64,000 nt of DNA, taken from positions 36,397 to 100,396 of the forward strand of contig CAIYHG010000124.1 of assembly GCA_903925975.1 (NCBI GenBank). The letters run 5' to 3'. Positions 8,984-57,293 of the stretch are shown one piece after another (within the stretch, counting starts at the first letter, position 1; each line of letters begins with the position of its first letter). Under the pieces are notes generated by a model. It was not told the DNA's origin. It worked only from the letters and a program-made list of their open reading frames with translations, and searched no databases. This DNA comes from an uncultured Acidobacteriia bacterium. Its GTDB lineage: Bacteria; Acidobacteriota; Terriglobia; Bryobacterales; Bryobacteraceae. Both the position numbers and the translations under genes were made by a program.

Positions 8984-9135
8984 ACAGGAGGCCCGTTCGC
9001 TCCGTTCTCCGCTCCCTGCGGAACGCGGCCAGCGGAGAGTCAAATTCGCGCTTGAACGCGCGGCTGAACGCCGCCCCGGATTCATCGCCTACGTCGCCGG
9101 TGATCTCCGTAGCGCTGACAGCTTGCGTCGGTGAC

Positions 9136-12100
9136 TCAGTGAAAGTCGTGCGATTCCGGCGCAGCCCCCGCTCGCAGCGGCTCGATCCGCGCGGCTTTTA
9201 CTGACACTACGTTGTCTACGTTTTGTAAGGCGCCGTCGATTATGAGGAATGTTTCCGAAAGCACTTCGGCTTTATAACGCTCGAAGGTGTCCGGAGTGAC
9301 GATGGCGTTCATGAGGCCGGTTTCGTCTTCCATGCTCAGGAACACGAACCCGTGGGCGGTGCCCGGGCGCTGGCGGACGATTACCGCCCCGGCGATGCGC
9401 ACCACGCGGCCGTTGCGAAGCTTCGTGAGATCGATGGCTCGCGTAACGCCGCGCGCGTTCATCTCATCGCGCCGGTACGCCATGGGGTGCTTGCCAATAG
9501 TCAGGCCGACGCCGCGATAGTCTGCCCCGAGGCGCTCTTCATCGGTCATGCGCGCGAGCGGCGACGCTTGGCCCTTCTCTTCCAGGAACTCGAGCAGCGG
9601 GCCAACCGGCAGTGCGGCCCGCTGCGTCTGCCAGAGCGCATCGCGGCGGTGCATGCGGTCGAGCGAATTCAATGCGCCGATTTCGGCAAGACGATTCAAT
9701 TCGTCTTTGCGCAGTTCGGGGACGCGCAGCGCGAGGTCGTCAATGCTGGTGAACGGGCGCGCGCGCAGGATGGCGCGCCCGGCTTCGGCGCGGAGGCCTT
9801 TTGCGTAGCGCAGGCCCAGGCGCAAGTGGGGCGGACCCCCTGGTCCGCGCGGGTCCCCCTGGACCCGCTGCCCAGAGGCTGGCGCAAGCTTCTCTGGCCG
9901 GCCAGGGGGTCGGCCGCGGACCAGGGGGTCCGCCCCGCCAGGCTCCAGCGTGCAATCCCAATCGGAGCGCTGCACATCTACCGGCAGCACGTGCAGGCCG
10001 TGGCGCTGGGCATCTTTGATGAGGATGGCGGGAGCATAAAAACCCATGGGCTGGTTATTCAGCATGGCGCAGGTGAACGCGCCCAGGTAGTGGCACTTCA
10101 AATACGCGCTGGCATAGGCAATCAGCGCGAAACTGGCCGCGTGGGATTCGGGAAAACCGTAGAGCGCGAAGGCGGTGATCGAGTGAACGACGGCGTCCTG
10201 CGTCGCGCCCGTGATCCCATTGCGTTCCATGCCCGCGCGCAGTTTCACTTCGATATCGGCCATGCGTTTTTCCGAGCGCTTGAAGCCGAGCGCGCGGCGC
10301 AATTCCTCCGCCTGGCCGCCCGTAAAGCCGGCCGCGATCATGGCCATGCGCAGCAACTGCTCCTGAAACAACGGCACGCCGAGCGTCCTTCGCAGCACGG
10401 GTTCGAGCGAGGGATGCAGGCAATCCGGCCGCTCCCTTCCCTGCCGCCGGTTTAGATACGGGTGCACCATTTTCCCCACGATGGGCCCAGGCCGAATGAT
10501 CGCCACCTGCACGACGATGTCGTAGAACCGCTCCGGCCGCATGCGCGGCAGCGTGGCCATTTGCGCGCGGCTCTCCACCTGAAACATGCCCACGGTATCG
10601 GCCTTTTGCAGCGCTCGATAAACCGCGGGATCGTCCGGCGGCAGATGAGCCAGGTCCACTTCTTCGCCATAGGATGCGGGAATGAGCGTCAGGCAATCTT
10701 CGAGCACGGCCATCATGCCCAGGCCGAGCAGGTCCACCTTGATGATGCCCATATCGGCGCAGTCTTCCTTATCCCACTGCACCACCACGCGCCTGGGCAT
10801 CGCGGCCGGTTCGAGAGGCACTACCGAATCGAGCTGCCCCTGGCACACCACCATGCCGCCCGAATGCTGCCCGAGGTGGCGCGGCAGGTCTTGCGCCATG
10901 CGGTATAGCTCGAAGAATTTGCGCACGCGCGGGTGATTGAGGTCGAAGCCCGCATCGCGGAATTGGGCTTCGGTAGTTTCCTTGGGGTCTTTCCATTCCC
11001 ACGCGCGCGCCAGGCCGGAAAGTTTTTCGAGCGTGGTGATTTCGAAGCCGAGCGCCTTGCCGATCTCGCGTGCGGCGGAGCGCCCACGATAGGTGATGAC
11101 GTTGGCCGTCATGGCCGCTCCGAGTTTTCCGAAGCGCTCGTAGACGTACTGGATGGCGCGCTCGCGCTTTTCGCCGCTGGGGAGGTCCATATCGATATCC
11201 GGCCACTCACCGCGCTCTTCGGAGAGGAAGCGTTCGAACAGCAGTTCCATGCCTACGGGATCGACGGCCGTGATTCCCAGGGCGTAGCAGACGGCGCTGT
11301 TGGCCGCGGACCCGCGCCCCTGCGCCAGAATGTTGTTCTCGCGGCAGAAGCGCACGATATCCCAAACGATGAGGAAATAGCCGGCCAGCTTCAGTTTTTC
11401 GATCAGCGCCAGTTCGCGCTCGATCTGGCGCCGCGCGCGCTCGTGATACGGGCGGTAGCGCCATCGCGCGCCCTCGTCCACGCGCTTGCGGAGAAAAGCG
11501 ATCTCCGTCTCGCCACCGGGCGTCGAGTAGCGCGGAAATTCGTAGCCCAGGTCGGCGAGCGTGAAGCCGAGGCGCGCTGAAATTTCGCGCGTATTGGCAA
11601 TGGCCTGCGGGAGATCCGCGAACAGGCGCGCCATTTCGGCGGCGGGCTTCACGTGGCGTTCGGAGTTTTGTTCGAGCAGGCGCCCGGCTCGGGCGAGCGT
11701 TGTTTTGTGGCGCACGCAGGCGAACGCATCCAGCAGTTCGCGTTGGGGTGGCGTCGCGTAGGCCACGGCGTTGGTCGCCACCCGAGGAATGCCGAGCCGC
11801 CGCGCGCGCTCCACGATTTCCTGGTTGCGCGCTTCCTCATCGCGGCGGTAATGGCGCTGCAATTCGGCATAGACATTTCCGCTTCCAAAGATATCGAGCA
11901 GGCGCTCGTCCGGGCGCCGGGTAATGCAAATGAGGCCGCGCGCAAATTCGGCGAACTCATCCAGCGTCGCGGCCCCCTCGCCTTTTTTCGCGCGCAGCTT
12001 CATCCGCGTGATCAGGCGGCACAGGTTTTGGTAGCCCTCGCGCGTTTCCGCGAGAAGCGGATACGAGATGCCGTTTGTGCAACTGACTTCCGCGCCGACG

Positions 12101-12291
12101 TGCGCGCGGATGCCCGCCTTTTGCGCGGCCATGTGAAAGCGCGGCGCGCCGTAGAGGCCGTTGCGATCCACCAGCGCCATGGCCGGCATGCCCAGCGCTG
12201 CGCAGGCGCCCGCCAGTTCCTCAGGAACAGCGGCGCCTTCCAGAAAACTGAAGCCGGAGCGGGCGTGGAGTTCGACGTAGGCCTCAGTCAT
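9136..12291 (-). CDS. dnaE2: Error-prone DNA polymerase III alpha subunit DnaE2
   Basis: A 1051-residue C-family polymerase used for translesion synthesis with ImuA and ImuB. The N-terminal PHP domain starts ELHARSGFSFLEGA, the palm has the catalytic PDIDMDLPSG, and GRGSAANSAVCYALG is intact. The track starts at 12468, but the first 59 residues there are low-complexity read-through of imuB; the ATG at 12291 overlaps the imuB stop (ATGACTGA) and begins the family sequence. At about residues 786-821 there is an extra Gly/Pro/Arg-rich stretch between DWDCTLE and LRLGLRY, which are normally almost adjacent. It is encoded by a 109-bp palindromic element and the frame is kept. The insert may sit in a surface loop; activity cannot be judged. 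Confidence 0.93.
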   Translation of the reverse strand: MTEAYVELHARSGFSFLEGAAVPEELAGACAALGMPAMALVDRNGLYGAPRFHMAAQKAGIRAHVGAEVSCTNGISYPLLAETREGYQNLCRLITRMKLRAKKGEGAATLDEFAEFARGLICITRRPDERLLDIFGSGNVYAELQRHYRRDEEARNQEIVERARRLGIPRVATNAVAYATPPQRELLDAFACVRHKTTLARAGRLLEQNSERHVKPAAEMARLFADLPQAIANTREISARLGFTLADLGYEFPRYSTPGGETEIAFLRKRVDEGARWRYRPYHERARRQIERELALIEKLKLAGYFLIVWDIVRFCRENNILAQGRGSAANSAVCYALGITAVDPVGMELLFERFLSEERGEWPDIDMDLPSGEKRERAIQYVYERFGKLGAAMTANVITYRGRSAAREIGKALGFEITTLEKLSGLARAWEWKDPKETTEAQFRDAGFDLNHPRVRKFFELYRMAQDLPRHLGQHSGGMVVCQGQLDSVVPLEPAAMPRRVVVQWDKEDCADMGIIKVDLLGLGMMAVLEDCLTLIPASYGEEVDLAHLPPDDPAVYRALQKADTVGMFQVESRAQMATLPRMRPERFYDIVVQVAIIRPGPIVGKMVHPYLNRRQGRERPDCLHPSLEPVLRRTLGVPLFQEQLLRMAMIAAGFTGGQAEELRRALGFKRSEKRMADIEVKLRAGMERNGITGATQDAVVHSITAFALYGFPESHAASFALIAYASAYLKCHYLGAFTCAMLNNQPMGFYAPAILIKDAQRHGLHVLPVDVQRSDWDCTLEPGGADPLVRGRPPGRPEKLAPASGQRVQGDPRGPGGPPHLRLGLRYAKGLRAEAGRAILRARPFTSIDDLALRVPELRKDELNRLAEIGALNSLDRMHRRDALWQTQRAALPVGPLLEFLEEKGQASPLARMTDEERLGADYRGVGLTIGKHPMAYRRDEMNARGVTRAIDLTKLRNGRVVRIAGAVIVRQRPGTAHGFVFLSMEDETGLMNAIVTPDTFERYKAEVLSETFLIIDGALQNVDNVVSVKAARIEPLRAGAAPESHDFH
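9828..9936. repeat. 109-bp palindromic element inserted in frame in dnaE2
   Basis: A perfect 22-bp inverted repeat bounds the element: the left arm starts GGGGCGGACCCCCTGG at 9828 and the right arm is its exact reverse complement at 9915-9936, with a 65-base centre that is itself partly palindromic (GGTCCCCCTGGACC). The left arm is preceded by GT, giving a GTGGGGCGG head as in other repeats in this window. Read on the coding strand it encodes roughly GGADPLVRGRPPGRP...GGPP with no stop; two other frames are open too. Confidence 0.85.
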
Positions 12292-13552
12292 AACTGCCCT
12301 CCACGAACCAGCCGCGCGGATTGCAGTAGATGCGGTAGAGCGCGCCGTCGCTGAGGGCGATATCCCACTCGTCGCGCGACCACGGGTCGGGCGTCCACCA
12401 ATCCCCCGAAGTCCGCCACGGCCCGGCCAATTGCAGCACCTCGCCGCGAACGCCTTCGGCCGCGACAAACCGGGGGCGCCCGGAATCGATTCTCACGCGC
12501 GCCGCACGCGCGGGGCGGAATACGCGGAATGCCAGACGGCAGGCGCCCGCGCCCCTAGCGGTTGGCGGCGGATTTCTGGACGGGCAAGCTAAAGCATGCC
12601 CCACCAAGGCCTCGGCCATCCGAAACGCCCCCGGCCGATGCGTATCCGGCAGTTCCGGAGAACCCACGTTGCCTTCGCCCACAATGGCCCTGATGCGCGC
12701 CAGAGTGATTTCGAGTTTGACTGGCTCAGGGGCCGCGGGAAGAAACAGGCCGCCTTGCGCCGGGCGCGGCTTCACCGGGTTCATTCCCAGCCACACCGCG
12801 ATAATCGCGCGGGCAGGCGGATGCGCAGCCAGATCCAGTTGCAGCAGCTTCAAAAACGATTTGGAATCGAGCGCCGGCGCGGGCAGCCGCAGCGTGCGCT
12901 CATGCGCCGCGCGGTTTTCCAGTTGCAGCCGGAGCCTCAGTTCGTCGGTGGCGAGCGCGCGCGTCGCCAGGCGCGTGCACAACCCGTTCAATAAACGCGC
13001 CAACAGAAATGACAGCGGCTCCAGCAGGTCCACCGGATACTCCAGCTCGATCTCGTCCTCGTAACGCGCCGGTTCTTCAATGGGCCGCAGTTTGCGCTCG
13101 GCCTCGCCGCGCGCCAGTTCCCGAAGGCGCAATCCTTCCGGGCCGAGCCGTTCGGCGATTCCCAGCGGCGGCAGCGCGGCAAGTTCCCGAAAACGCCGGA
13201 TGCCCCATCGCTCCAGCGTTTCCAGCAATGCGGACGAGGGGTCAAGCTGTTCGAGCGGCAATTCCCCTAGAAACTTGGCTTCATCGCCGTGGGGCACGAT
13301 GTTGATGCCCGCAAATCCCCGCGCCGCGCAGATTGCCGCATCGGGGTTGGAGGCGAGCGCAATGCGAACGCGGGCGCCGGTTTCGCCGGCCCGGCGCGCG
13401 ATGGCCGCCGCCACATCGTGCGGCAACCCGAAAAGGCGGTCGAGGCCAGAGGCATCGAGGGTAACGGTTTGGGGACCGGTCTGCTCCACAACGGGGGAGA
13501 ATTCCAGGGCCAAAGCGGCGAGATTTCCGGTTCCGTGCAGGCACGCGAACAT
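12284..13552 (-). CDS. imuB: ImuB-like Y-family polymerase homologue (short N-terminus)
   Basis: A 422-residue catalytically inactive Y-family homologue that links ImuA, the sliding clamp and DnaE2 in mutasomes. The track begins at 14014 but that frame overlaps imuA; family sequence begins MFACLHGTGNLAALALEFSP at 13552, 3 bases after the imuA stop. Compared with typical ImuB it lacks about 80 N-terminal residues of the palm, so there is no DxD region at all. The little-finger region (about 190-330) and C-terminal tail (WWTPDPWSRDEWDI, YCNPRGWFVEGSYD) are present. Near residues 310-335 it reads VGHALACPS, an extra stretch encoded by a short palindromic repeat between DTHRPGAFRM and the FRVFRPARAARV motif. 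Confidence 0.85.
   Translation of the reverse strand: MFACLHGTGNLAALALEFSPVVEQTGPQTVTLDASGLDRLFGLPHDVAAAIARRAGETGARVRIALASNPDAAICAARGFAGINIVPHGDEAKFLGELPLEQLDPSSALLETLERWGIRRFRELAALPPLGIAERLGPEGLRLRELARGEAERKLRPIEEPARYEDEIELEYPVDLLEPLSFLLARLLNGLCTRLATRALATDELRLRLQLENRAAHERTLRLPAPALDSKSFLKLLQLDLAAHPPARAIIAVWLGMNPVKPRPAQGGLFLPAAPEPVKLEITLARIRAIVGEGNVGSPELPDTHRPGAFRMAEALVGHALACPSRNPPPTARGAGACRLAFRVFRPARAARVRIDSGRPRFVAAEGVRGEVLQLAGPWRTSGDWWTPDPWSRDEWDIALSDGALYRIYCNPRGWFVEGSYD
12583..12605 (-). repeat. GTGG-headed palindromic repeat inside imuB
   Basis: On the coding strand the sequence is GTGGGGCATGCTTTAGCTTG followed by CC, a hairpin with the GTGG head shared by the repeats at 14.06, 15.66 and 41.47 kb. 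It is read in frame as part of VGHALACPS. The insertion limits beyond the hairpin cannot be fixed without a repeat-free homologue. Confidence 0.55.
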
Positions 13553-13554
13553 AG

Positions 13555-14301
13555 CTACTCCCGAGTGCGGACCAAAAACGAAGCGTTTACCGCGGGGCCG
13601 GGCTTGCGGCGCGCCGTGTGAACGCGAACGCCGTCGAGTAGCCGGGCATGGGCCGGAATCGCCGGAGCGCCGCGCCAAAGCGTGCTTTCGCGGGCGCATT
13701 CGAGCGTGAGCGAGGAGCAGGTTTTCGCGTTCGATTGCCGTGACACGGCCAGCAGCACGGCCGGCGTATGCTCCACAGCCCGTCGCAGCCGGAACCACGA
13801 AGTGAGCGAGATACGCCGCGCCATCTCGGGCGGCGTATCGCCCAAATCCATCGCCACCATGCCGAACCCGCCGCCCTGCAACAGCAGATCGGCCGCCTGA
13901 AGCGCGTGCTCGGCATTGTGCCCGCAACGAACCCAGAGAAGGCGTTCCAGGCGGACGCCGGCCGCGGCGGCGGAGGCGGGGTCGAAGGCGTCCTCGGCGT
14001 CTATGAGGGCGCAAAATTCCGGTGGGGAGGGGAACTGGGCAGCCCTGCCGGACTGCCCAAGGCAGGCCAGGAGGCCTACCCCACTGGTCGCTTCCGCGAG
14101 AACCGCAATCAGCAGCGCCGTTCTGCCGGAGGAAGCCGGGCCCACGATTTCCGTCAGCGCGCCGCGTGGCAGGCCGCCGATGGCGCGGTCAAGGGCGGGC
14201 ATACCGCTCGAAATAACCTGCGGGGCGGGCCGGGACTGCCACTCCAGGGAATCGCCCAGGACCGTTTCGAACCGCCGTTTCAAGACCGTCGCCGTACCCA
14301 T
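13555..14301 (-). CDS. imuA: ImuA, RecA-like cell-division/mutagenesis cassette protein
   Basis: A 248-residue RecA/SulA-like protein that is first in the imuA-imuB-dnaE2 cassette and supports damage-induced mutagenesis. The region ISSGMPALDRAIGGLPRGAL followed by VGPASSGRTALL is the RecA-like P-loop segment; EFCALIDAEDAFDPASAAAAGV and LLWVRCGHNAEHALQAADLLL are the conserved core. About 22 residues (SGVGLLACLGQSGRAAQFPSPP) sit between ATS and EFCALID, which are nearly adjacent in relatives, and correspond to a 66-bp palindromic repeat. A 21-bp palindrome overlaps the likely -10 upstream. The gene may be SOS controlled. Confidence 0.88.
   Translation of the reverse strand: MGTATVLKRRFETVLGDSLEWQSRPAPQVISSGMPALDRAIGGLPRGALTEIVGPASSGRTALLIAVLAEATSGVGLLACLGQSGRAAQFPSPPEFCALIDAEDAFDPASAAAAGVRLERLLWVRCGHNAEHALQAADLLLQGGGFGMVAMDLGDTPPEMARRISLTSWFRLRRAVEHTPAVLLAVSRQSNAKTCSSLTLECARESTLWRGAPAIPAHARLLDGVRVHTARRKPGPAVNASFLVRTRE
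14021..14087. repeat. Palindromic REP pair inserted in frame in imuA
   Basis: The segment starts GGTGGGGAGGGG and ends GGCCTACCCCACTGG, so two GTGG heads face each other in a BIME-like layout, with an internal CCTGCC...GGCAGG stem. The right half, GGCAGGC-N6-GCCTACCCCAC, matches GGCAGGC-N6-GCCTGCCCCAC at 15.66 kb. The length is about 66 bp, a multiple of three, and imuA stays open. Confidence 0.65.
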
Positions 14302-14320
14302 GTATTCGCCTTTTATTCGC

Positions 14321-14341
14321 CCTGTACTATACTTTTACAGG
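14321..14341. promoter_or_regulatory. 21-bp palindrome overlapping the imuA promoter (candidate LexA-type operator)
   Basis: CCTGTA-N9-TACAGG lies 20 bases upstream of the imuA start, and on the imuA strand it overlaps a TATAGT -10-like box. imuA cassettes are LexA-controlled in many bacteria, and a dyad in this place fits a repressor site. The spacing is not the E. coli SOS box, and the LexA site of this lineage is not known to me, so the protein is unassigned. A TATTCGCC direct repeat lies between it and the start. Confidence 0.4.
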
Positions 14342-14409
14342 ACGGGGCGGGTAGGTGTCAAGGAGGGCCTTTAATCGGCAGTTGGAATGATAACGTGCAT
14401 AATACCTAT

Positions 14410-14715
14410 ATGGAGAATGCGACGTTTTGCGTGCCGGAACAGGCCTTAACCGAGTTCTGTTTACGCAACGGGATACGCAAACTCTCACTTTTCGGCTCAG
14501 CGCTTACGGATCGCTTTCGGCCAACCAGCGATGTAGATCTCCTGGTGGAGTTTAAGCCGGAAATTCGTGTGGGTTACTTGAGAATGGCCGCTATGGAGCG
14601 CGAACTTTCGGCGCTTTTCGGCCGCGAAGTCGATTTGCGCACTCCCGATGAACTCAGCCCCTATTTCCGGGAGGATGTAACTCGGTCGGCACGCACTCAA
14701 TATGTCAGTTCCTGA
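14410..14715 (+). CDS. mntA: MntA-type minimal nucleotidyltransferase (antitoxin of HepT)
   Basis: A 101-residue nucleotidyltransferase. The motif LSLFGSALTDRFRPTSDVDL gives the G-S-x8-S-D-x-D active site of the MNT fold, followed by VEF. In type VII toxin-antitoxin systems MntA AMPylates the HEPN toxin HepT to inactivate it. The track's frame starts at 13768, inside imuA on the opposite strand; the ATG at 14410 is the only sensible start and gives the normal length. Its 3' end overlaps the HepT-like gene by 14 bases. Confidence 0.85.
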   Translation: MENATFCVPEQALTEFCLRNGIRKLSLFGSALTDRFRPTSDVDLLVEFKPEIRVGYLRMAAMERELSALFGREVDLRTPDELSPYFREDVTRSARTQYVSS

Positions 14716-15043
14716 CACGATTCGACTCCGCCACATGCTCGACGCGGCTCGCGAAGCCGTCGGGTTCGGGGCAGGAAGCACGACGCCAGAGCTACTTCAG
14801 AATCGCATGTTGGCGTTGGCGATCATCCGGTGCATAGAAATCATCGGGGAGGCTGCTTTTAAGGTCAGTCCGGAAACTCGCGCCCGGCATCCGGAAATCC
14901 CGTGGGTAGACATCATCGGAATGCGTCACCGGCTCGTTCACGCCTATTTCGATGTGGACCTCAACCGCCTTTGCGACACGATTTCAGAAGACCTGCCGCC
15001 TCTGATCGCGATGCTTGAAGCGATCTTGCCTTCTGCGGCCTAG
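14702..15043 (+). CDS. hepT: HepT-like HEPN RNase (DUF86 family toxin)
   Basis: A 113-residue DUF86/HEPN protein, the toxin partner of the upstream MntA. The catalytic R-x4-H is visible in GMRHRLVHAYFDVD, including the tyrosine after the histidine that MntA modifies in characterised pairs. ALAIIRCIEIIGEAA and PETRARHPEIPW are further family marks. The start overlaps mntA by 14 bases, so the two are translated together. Confidence 0.88.
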   Translation: MSVPDTIRLRHMLDAAREAVGFGAGSTTPELLQNRMLALAIIRCIEIIGEAAFKVSPETRARHPEIPWVDIIGMRHRLVHAYFDVDLNRLCDTISEDLPPLIAMLEAILPSAA

Positions 15044-15170
15044 TATCTGCCTCATAACAACGTAAAAGGAATTGCCACAGGCCAGTGCGGCGCCTAGTAG
15101 TCTTCGAAATCGTTATTACGGTGGCGTTTGGCCGTTCCGTGAGTTAGAGTTATGCAGCATAAGGAGTCGC

Positions 15171-15638
15171 ATGGCCAAGACTGCAAGTGCGGGCAAAACG
15201 GCGCCGGCCGCCGAAACTCTTGCCCCAAACGCATTCATCGGCAAAACCAGTGCGCCTGATGACGCCGACCTCGCCCGTGCGCTGGGTTCGACAAAACCGC
15301 TATGGGATCAGATCGTTGCGGTCCTGGAGGAAGAGCACGGGGTCGCGATACGGGAGTGGAACTCCTACTCGCCGAAAGCGGGGTGGGCGCTGCGATTGAA
15401 ACGGAAGAAACGAACCATCGTCTGGATGAGCCCGTGCAATGGCTGCTTTCGGGTCACGTTCATTTTGGGCGGCAAAGCAGTAGCGGCAGCGCAGCAAAGC
15501 AAGCTGTCGTCCCGCGTCCTGCGTATGATTGACGAGGCGCCGCAATACCCTGAAGGAAGAGGCATCCGGTTCCAAGTTGACGGGCCGAAAGAGATAATTA
15601 TTGTTAAGCAACTGGCCCAAATCAAGCTGGAGAACTAG
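15171..15638 (+). CDS. DUF3788 family protein
   Basis: A 155-residue protein of the DUF3788 family, function unknown. The marks are TKPLWDQIVAVLEEEHG, EWNSYSPKAGWALRL, a KKRTIVWMSPCNGCFRVTF core and ILGGKAV. The track starts at 15072, but the ATG at 15171 has a perfect AAGGAG four bases upstream, whereas the longer form adds unrelated sequence. Its stop codon lies inside the left end of the repeat element at 15637, so that element inserted exactly at the gene's end or supplied its stop. Confidence 0.75.
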   Translation: MAKTASAGKTAPAAETLAPNAFIGKTSAPDDADLARALGSTKPLWDQIVAVLEEEHGVAIREWNSYSPKAGWALRLKRKKRTIVWMSPCNGCFRVTFILGGKAVAAAQQSKLSSRVLRMIDEAPQYPEGRGIRFQVDGPKEIIIVKQLAQIKLEN

Positions 15639-15767
15639 GAGCTCGTTGAAAAATCCATGGCAGGCGAAACCGCCTGCCCCACCTGGCCGCGCAAGTGCTT
15701 GAGAGTGGTGGCGCAGGCGGTTTCACCTGCGGTCCCCGATGAGAACAGGCTTTTTCAACAAGCTCCT
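15637..15767. mobile_element. 131-bp MITE/BIME-like element with terminal inverted repeats
   Basis: Terminal repeats AGGAGCTCGTTGAAAAA (15637) and TTTTTCAACAAGCTCCT (15751) match at 16 of 17 positions as inverted copies. Inside lie two facing 24-bp GTGG-headed hairpins: on the minus strand GTGGGGCAGGCGGTTTCGCC (15683-15660) and on the plus strand GTGGCGCAGGCGGTTTCACC (15707-15730), agreeing at 21 of 24 positions over their full length. There is no ORF. It is a non-autonomous element, either a MITE carrying a REP pair or a REP pair caught between TIRs. Confidence 0.75.
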
Positions 15768-15799
15768 AAGCTCCAACATCCCTGCCTGACGGCGCGCTT

Positions 15800-16468
15800 A
15801 TGAAGAAATGGACAGTGGTCGAAAGAACGCTTACGCCCGACGGCCAAGCCATCTCGCTCGATGAGCATGACGGCAGCTATGCCATTCGGGTCGGCAGCGC
15901 GCAGCTCATGTCGACGCGCCAGCACGCCTCCGAAGAGAAGCTCGCGGCACTGGCTTGCGCGCATTTGGAAGGGAAACGCGGCGCCCGCGTTCTGATCGGC
16001 GGACTGGGTTTCGGCTTTACTTTGCGAGCTTCGCTATCGGCTCTTGCGTCTGACGCCACCGTGGTTGTGGCCGAGATCCTGCCCGCCGTCATCGAGTGGA
16101 ATCGAAACCCGGTCTACAAACTCGCCGGCGATGCCATGGCCGACCAAAGGGCGACCGTTCTGCAACAGGATGTATGGGACGTGATTCGCGTGGAGCGGAT
16201 GGGCTTTGACAGCATCATTCTGGACGTGGATAACGGGCCGGCCGCGCTGACCACTGGCGGCAATGAACGCCTCTATGAGGAACCAGGGTTGAAACTGGCG
16301 CGGGGCGCCTTGCGACCGGCGGGCTGCCTGGCATTCTGGTCCGCGGCCGCCGATCCGGAATTCGAAAGACGCTTGGCCCGCGCGGGGTTCACAGTCGAAG
16401 TGCACCTATCCCGGGCGCGCCCGAATTCCGGGAGCCGCCACACGTTGTTCCTCGGGCGGCTAAAATAG
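15800..16468 (+). CDS. Spermidine synthase-like SAM-dependent protein
   Basis: A 222-residue Rossmann-fold protein resembling the spermidine/spermine synthase family. GARVLIGGLGFGFTLRA is the glycine-rich nucleotide loop, VVVAEILPAVIEWNR the acidic strand end, and DSIILDVDNGPAAL the catalytic-loop region. It is shorter than true SpeE (about 280) and no SpeD partner is near. Annotators usually call such proteins spermidine synthase-like or SAM methyltransferase; the substrate is unknown. The downstream ArsC-like gene starts 8 bases after its stop, suggesting one transcript. Confidence 0.7.
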   Translation: MKKWTVVERTLTPDGQAISLDEHDGSYAIRVGSAQLMSTRQHASEEKLAALACAHLEGKRGARVLIGGLGFGFTLRASLSALASDATVVVAEILPAVIEWNRNPVYKLAGDAMADQRATVLQQDVWDVIRVERMGFDSIILDVDNGPAALTTGGNERLYEEPGLKLARGALRPAGCLAFWSAAADPEFERRLARAGFTVEVHLSRARPNSGSRHTLFLGRLK

Positions 16469-16476
16469 ACGCTTCC

Positions 16477-16833
16477 ATGGCGAATATCCAGGTCTTCGGC
16501 GTGAAGAACTCGCAGGCGACGCGCGCGGCGGAGCGCTTCTTCAAGGAGCGGCGCGCGGCGATTCAGATGATCGACCTGAAGAAGAAGGCCATCGCCCCCG
16601 GCGAAATTAGACGGTTCGTCGAACGCTTCGGCTGGGCCGGATTGCTCGATTCCGAGGGCAAGGCCTACATCGAAGGCGGGCTCAAGTACCTGAAACTCTC
16701 CGAATCCGAACTGCTGGCGAAGATCGAGCGGGACCCCGCATTACTGCGTCTCCCGCTGGTCCGCGGCGGCAAACTGGTCAGCATCGGCCACGACGAAGCC
16801 GCCTGGAAGGCCATGCTCGCCCCGCCCGCCTGA
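16477..16833 (+). CDS. ArsC/YffB-family thioredoxin-fold protein lacking the catalytic cysteine
   Basis: A 118-residue ArsC-like (Spx/YffB) protein. The fold marks are a first strand IQVFGV, helix RAAERFFKERRA, and the late LRLPLVRGGKLVSIG segment with the cis-proline. The usual catalytic Cys after the first strand (N-C-x-T) is replaced by KNSQATRAA, and there is no cysteine anywhere in the protein. Redox or arsenate reductase chemistry is therefore unlikely; a structural, regulatory or glutathione-binding role is possible. Confidence 0.8.
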   Translation: MANIQVFGVKNSQATRAAERFFKERRAAIQMIDLKKKAIAPGEIRRFVERFGWAGLLDSEGKAYIEGGLKYLKLSESELLAKIERDPALLRLPLVRGGKLVSIGHDEAAWKAMLAPPA

Positions 16834-32201: not shown

Positions 32202-32226
32202 ACTTCAGGCCGGCGTGGCGCGTTTG

Positions 32227-32275
32227 TGGCGTGGGCCTCCAGGCCTGCGGAGTCGAGATTCGTCTCGACTTTTTC
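32227..32275. repeat. Dispersed tandem-hairpin repeat with TTCG loop, copy 1
   Basis: The 45-base core (GGGCCTCCAGGCCTGCGGAG onward) matches the copy at 57245 with two differences. It contains GGCCT-CC-AGGCC and AGTCGAGA-TTCG-TCTCGACT followed by TTTTTC, so on the plus strand the second stem with a TTCG tetraloop and T tail has the form of an intrinsic terminator. Here it lies between convergent genes and could end the glycosyltransferase transcript. Confidence 0.8.
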
Positions 32276-57221: not shown

Positions 57222-57244
57222 AGCCGGTCGCGCCGCGTCGACCG

Positions 57245-57293
57245 TGGCGCGGGCCTCCAGGCCTGCAGAGTCGAGATTCGTCTCGACTTTTCT
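57245..57293. repeat. Dispersed tandem-hairpin repeat with TTCG loop, copy 2
   Basis: Same element as at 32227: GGGCCTCCAGGCCTGCAGAG then AGTCGAGA-TTCG-TCTCGACT and TTTTCTTT. Here it lies between the small ORF at 56952 and tsaD on the same strand, so it would terminate upstream transcription before tsaD. Confidence 0.8.

Follow-up and report, generated by a model that had tools for sequence, protein, structure and literature searches.

The imuB gene in the DNA analysed here, a stretch of 64,000 nucleotides from an uncultured soil bacterium of the Bryobacteraceae (Bryobacterales, Acidobacteriota; the window), contains a short GTGG-headed hairpin that is translated as part of the protein. How such an element came to lie within a coding sequence, and whether its location in the imuA-imuB-dnaE2 mutagenesis cassette is significant, was the question addressed. 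In a preliminary description, the hairpin had been regarded as the third copy of a single repeat in this cassette, which was considered either a hot spot of insertion or tolerant of inserts because it acts only under stress.

The core of the repeat, GTGGGGCATGCTTTAGCTTGCCC, was located within imuB at positions 12582-12604 of the minus strand. Its earlier placement at 12583-12605 was one base off, but the reading VGHALACPS was right. Core and next four bases give GTG GGG CAT GCT TTA GCT TGC CCG TCC, which specifies VGHALACPS in frame as residues 317-325 of ImuB. On both sides sequences follow that are conserved among the ImuB proteins of relatives, DTHRPGAFRM and LAFRVFRP, and the segment is indeed inserted between two conserved motifs. 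The stem consists of 7 paired bases interrupted by one T-T mismatch and is closed by a TTTA loop (-6.7 kcal/mol and z -2.75, both for folding as DNA); of the stem types known from REPs, about 7-20 bp with a loop of 2-5 nt or two stems joined by a bulge, only the interrupted form is therefore present. Stop codons are absent from four of the core's six frames, so that in-frame survival should be easy for insertions whose length is divisible by three. The copy in imuB is identical to the consensus of its family, which suggests a young insertion. Searches of Rfam across positions 9000-16500 of the window and of PHROGs with ImuB yielded no match. The features of the region are listed in Table 1.

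Table 1. Features in and next to the mutagenesis cassette (positions refer to the window)
Feature	Position	Strand	Basis or remark
dnaE2, 1051 aa, error-prone DNA polymerase	9136..12291	-	NCBIfam NF004225, 1194 bits, cut-off 939
dnaE2 beta-turn insertion, about 35 aa	9834..9939	-	inverted GGGGCGGACCCCCTGGTCC repeat
imuB, 422 aa, inactive Y-family polymerase-like mutasome adaptor	12284..13552	-	homology and gene order
ImuB-C beta domain, residues 342-421	12290..12529	-	AlphaFold2
Predicted disordered linker, ImuB residues 294-338	12539..12673	-	pLDDT <50 and hypervariability
VGHALACPS codons and F1 core	12578..12604	-	GTGG head, imperfect stem, TTTA loop
Putative beta-clamp motif QGGLF (266-270) and RecA-NT-like helix (277-291)	12680..12757	-	
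imuA, 248 aa, RecA-like	13555..14301	-	Pfam RecA 4e-16; NCBIfam ImuA below cut-off
imuA private insertion, 57 nt (19 aa)	14029..14085	-	absent in about 100 relatives
F2 REP GTGGGGCAGGCGGTTTCGCCTGCC, intergenic	15659..15682	-	class flanking the RAYT of the window's genome

ImuB itself gave a Pfam IMS match below the cut-off (E 3e-4) and Pol IV-like NCBIfam matches; its gene lies between imuA and dnaE2, and the proteins of relatives are 50-79% identical. An AlphaFold2 model based on a 28-row alignment (mean pLDDT 80) showed a confident core and the helix 277-291, followed by residues 294-338 with pLDDT below 50 and by the beta domain 342-421, for which pLDDT is high save for residues 381-389. 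Three residues of the putative clamp motif, Q266, G268 and F270, are invariant. In mycobacterial ImuB, clamp motif, RecA-NT, linker and ImuB-C follow each other in this order, and the protein without ImuB-C still binds ImuA' (PMC11791113). Since QGGLF, helix, linker and beta domain are arranged alike here, the insert was assigned to the equivalent linker; according to the model, VGHALACPS lies inside a predicted disordered linker between the RecA-NT helix and the C-terminal domain. In the cassette of one relative (genome G113), ImuA and ImuB share a single uninterrupted frame that spans at least 586 aa, possibly a fusion or the result of a lost stop codon.

To describe the repeats, families were named F1 (imuB), F2 and F3 (imuA). 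The assembly to which the window belongs (G000) comprises 3.87 Mb and is 86% complete. In this genome, the F1 pattern GTGGGGCANGCNNNNGCNTGCCC has 49 exact matches and the reversed pattern none; with two mismatches allowed, the numbers are 95, a set that also counts opposite-strand readings of the same copies, and 1. The GTGG-headed element reading VGHALACPS is thus a real, dispersed repeat, much more frequent than chance would allow, inserted into imuB, as had been proposed. About 60 copies were inspected in their context. An alignment of 58 of them revealed a nearly invariant core including the GTGG head, each position of which is kept in 55 to 58 copies, and conservation drops fast outside. 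This agrees with REPs, in which a 5' GTAG or GTGG precedes the hairpin by 0-2 nt. Copies occur as singlets, in 9 head-to-head pairs and in 7 tail-to-tail pairs. Exact matches number 5, 1 and 0 in congeners and 20-77 in some other genera, from which the family appears to grow and decay lineage by lineage.

Coding regions were called by a codon-usage score trained on the window, and positives were also checked by family searches. A strict filter missed imuB with its atypical linker, and a looser one was used for counting intragenic copies. F1 was found inside genes at 4 of about 44 loci, compared with a coding fraction of the window of about 0.88. It is predominantly extragenic, as REPs are, and its scarcity in genes suggests that selection removes most copies landing there. 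Besides imuB, the search for other in-frame copies in the genome, which had been suggested as a check, led to murF, an MFS transporter gene with an inverted pair of F1 in the central loop, and a gene for a PotA-type ABC ATPase with F1 in the TOBE region on the opposite strand. MurF, an essential housekeeping enzyme, was recognized by TIGR01143 (402 bits, cut-off 288.6); the element is read in the same frame as in imuB and accounts for 11 extra residues that its relatives do not have. Among 55 copies of F2 and F3, the one in imuA is the only one confirmed as intragenic. Open frames across copies at two loci were left uncounted, their translations being of low complexity and not gene-like, and at two further loci the intragenic status is doubtful, as the copies look to be upstream of the true start codon.

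F1 appears to be a REP of the type associated with REP-associated tyrosine transposases (RAYTs), because exact copies lie on either side of a RAYT gene in G113 and variants flank another one in G063. None of the three RAYT-like matches in G000, the 86% complete assembly, is flanked by F1; the F1 RAYT may be absent from the incomplete assembly, or F1 may have moved in trans. A cognate RAYT in the same genome is usual for REPs but not defining, and movement in trans is possible. The other families have comparable neighbours. F2 (GTGGGGCAGGCGGTTTCGCCTGCC), with 27 exact pattern matches in the genome of the window, borders this genome's own RAYT on contig C182 on both sides; the best model for this protein was NCBIfam NF047646, 'REP-associated tyrosine transposase' (E 1.6e-20, 73.5 bits, cut-off 80). 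F3 (GTGGGGTAGGCCTCCYGGCCTGC), the family of the imuA insert, has further copies in the genome and flanks a RAYT in G103. The RAYT open frame on C182 (L051, 2310-3014) includes, close to its N-terminus, an F2 REP read as VGQAVSPAV. Two intergenic units of 48 nt in the window, at 32226-32273 and 57244-57291, are 96% identical; in both, an F3-like GTGG hairpin precedes another one, GAGTCGAGATTCGTCTCGACTTTT, that has a T run, and they are possibly a mobile terminator.

VGHALACPS was not detected in any other ImuB, neither in 103 distinct linkers nor in 35 more from named genomes, and the claim of an insertion stands. Within the set of 103, ImuB varies most in the stretch that joins DTHRPxAFRM to LAxRxFRP, which diverges too fast for an empty site in imuB to be defined at the level of bases. 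In several relatives other repeats are found there. The linkers of five relatives contain GGGGACAGACG...CGTCTGTCCCC palindromes, and those of two others GTGG-headed units. The GGGGACAGACG palindromes, which look unrelated to F1, F2 and F3, likewise flank a RAYT gene in G003 and, judged by coordinates, adjoin RAYT matches in G063, G103 and G002. The linker peptides PLPYGRGS and SRDREGAV, each present in two loci, are presumably repeat-derived as well. A stem score of at least 12 was reached by 8 of 44 ImuB linkers, but by only 1 of 504 windows of equal size from the rest of imuB and by 0 of 1266 in dnaE1; most relatives lack a strong palindrome in the linker. A GGGGACAGACGCATTT unit occurs in many places of G103 as inverted pairs, the ImuB linker among them, whereas in G004 this family has only 3 matches, of which 2 form the pair in imuB. 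The two genomes belong to one genus and may have an ancestral insertion in common.

The other two cassette genes carry inserts too, as the preliminary description had it. In imuA, the F3 core GTGGGGTAGGCCTCCTGGCCTGC at 14062-14084 and a second hairpin (fold z -3.0) lie in a stretch that measures 45 aa in almost all of the roughly 100 relatives and is 19 residues longer here. In dnaE2, the arms of the inverted repeat, 9828-9862 and 9902-9936, fall into a beta-turn between SDWxCTxE and LRLGLRYAKGL. A single family behind the three inserts was rejected, since F1 in imuB, F3 in imuA and the GGACCCCCTGGTCC type in dnaE2 differ; the element in imuB is not the third copy of one repeat, and three related GTGG-headed families are involved. 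At the DnaE2 turn, inserts of at least 6 aa were detected in 14 of 30 complete genes, with differing sequences, several of them GTGG-headed, compared with 0 of 33 genes at the homologous turn of DnaE1 (SDWSFTPDGQAIRFGLGAVKN; Fisher p 4e-6, shared ancestry ignored). Counts across relatives in general disregard shared ancestry, and the genomes are mostly MAGs. From these comparisons, the linker of ImuB and the turn of DnaE2 are recurrent acceptors and the imuA site is a one-off. Growth by tandem duplication, not REP insertion, was seen in the DnaE2 turn of one relative (G087), where the peptide repeat CTVEPCTVEPCTVEP is arranged in tandem. In another (G091), an insert ending VQGDPRGPGGPPH is located in the N-terminal part of ImuB, near residue 60; its peptide matches the DnaE2 insert of G000 (QRVQGDPRGPGGPPH), one element type in different genes. 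Beside the cassette, at 14400-15043, two small genes resemble by eye those for an MNT nucleotidyltransferase and HEPN/DUF86, likely a toxin-antitoxin pair of the MntA-HepT type.

Taken as a whole, it is very probable that the VGHALACPS segment represents a recent, in-frame copy of a RAYT-type REP in the ImuB linker, where it is tolerated. F1 would have been inserted recently into a flexible part of the protein, probably moved as single-stranded DNA, whether in cis or in trans, by a tyrosine transposase of the Y1/HUH type. Selection would purge nearly all genic copies, with those remaining that are in frame, stop-free and within loops or linkers, and VGHALACPS is most likely near neutral for mutasome function. 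Repeated insertion at the ImuB linker and the DnaE2 beta-turn would reflect the tolerance of both proteins for additional residues at these sites. Flexible loops and linkers are the factor common to the inserts. What fits less well is the lack of an F1-flanked RAYT among the three matches, the T-T mismatch in the stem, and the number of inserts, three per 5-kb cassette, which exceeds the expectation for uniform tolerance, although the families were partly picked there.

That the cassette gathers inserts chiefly as a stress-only system under weak selection is the best of the other explanations, but doubtful. It would agree with the difference between the turns of DnaE2 and DnaE1 and with dN/dS values against congeners, about 0.14-0.26 for the cassette genes and about 0.10 for DnaE1. 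The cassette genes are under purifying selection, somewhat less constrained than the replicase; their values are still well below 1, however, the conserved segments are free of inserts, and housekeeping MurF bears F1 in the same frame. Tolerance as such gained support at two sites, the linker of ImuB and the turn of DnaE2, where different repeats are found in different relatives while the DnaE1 turn has none. Action under stress only is not required for it, as the copies in murF and in the MFS and ABC ATPase genes indicate, and is at best a partial cause; tolerance may be raised further by a mutasome under weaker constraint.

A true hot spot, in which REPs enter the cassette preferentially and beyond what protein tolerance allows, for example through transcription, SOS induction or single-stranded DNA, is improbable. 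Three different GTGG families within about 5 kb and inserts at the ImuB and DnaE2 sites in many relatives speak for it, and Di Nocera et al. (2013) considered REPs in repair genes including DnaE2 to be non-fortuitous (PMC3733652). Yet the inserts gather at two flexible sites and not cassette-wide, the one in imuA is confined to a single genome out of about 100, F1 is also present in murF, MFS and ABC genes, and two of the families came under study through their presence in the cassette. Insert positions track protein flexibility and not the locus, and the regional hot spot suggested before is not supported. Very little likelihood is also attached to the broader proposal that RAYT-mobilised palindromes preferentially enter or are retained in mutasome genes across the Bryobacteraceae and alter the induced mutation rate between species; if true, a selfish repeat would tune evolvability via the ImuB linker and the DnaE2 turn. 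Least credible is a palindrome kept for function, as an mRNA hairpin or as a linker peptide tuning ImuB or the mutasome: G004 and G103 retain long perfect linker palindromes despite differing stem sequences, and in G004 hardly any other family matches exist, but sequence, length and family of the palindromes vary by species, most relatives do without a strong one, and VGHALACPS is private to the species of the window.

The paralogues DnaE1 and DnaE2 together with the ImuB linker allow tolerance to be told from targeting, and they provide a clean comparative test of the non-fortuitous presence of REPs in repair genes, a claim open since 2013. The insertions also mark natural permissive sites in ImuB and DnaE2, and annotators should be aware that VGHALACP-like peptides in these genomes derive from repeats.

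RAYT-associated GTAG/GTGG REPs and REPINs have reportedly been described by Nunvar in 2010 and by Bertels and Rainey in 2011. F1 is similar to RAYT-associated REPs in its GTGG head, the short hairpin, tens of copies, the occurrence as singlets and inverted pairs, the mostly intergenic placement and the flanking RAYT in relatives; it differs as a new family of the Bryobacterales with an imperfect stem and without a cognate RAYT in an incomplete genome. GTGG heads are known, as are Acidobacteria with high-copy atypical hairpins (Quentin 2018, PMC6006769). REPs within genes, many of them for DNA synthesis and repair including dnaE2, were reported by Di Nocera et al. (2013), who proposed that flexible linkers could account for neutrality and speculated that the hits in repair genes were not due to chance (PMC3733652); neither ImuB nor the word stem 'imu' occurs in the text of that paper. 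Those elements and the one described here are alike as short palindromes translated in frame in repair genes, and here, too, the REP is wholly inside the open reading frame, in frame and absent from shorter homologues. The present case differs in that one ImuB linker is reused by different families across many genomes, with DnaE1 as a control. Rickettsia palindromic elements (RPE) are also in-frame palindromes in many unrelated proteins; RPE-1 is a longer palindromic insertion, and RPE-4 and RPE-6 are among CGTC repeats without a transposase (PMC3733652). F1 is set apart from the RPE, by description only, in being GTGG-headed and RAYT-linked. The VGHALACPS insertion is thus a well-documented instance of a known phenomenon and not a new system; new are ImuB as a REP target, a single linker entered again and again by different families, and the use of DnaE1 as control.
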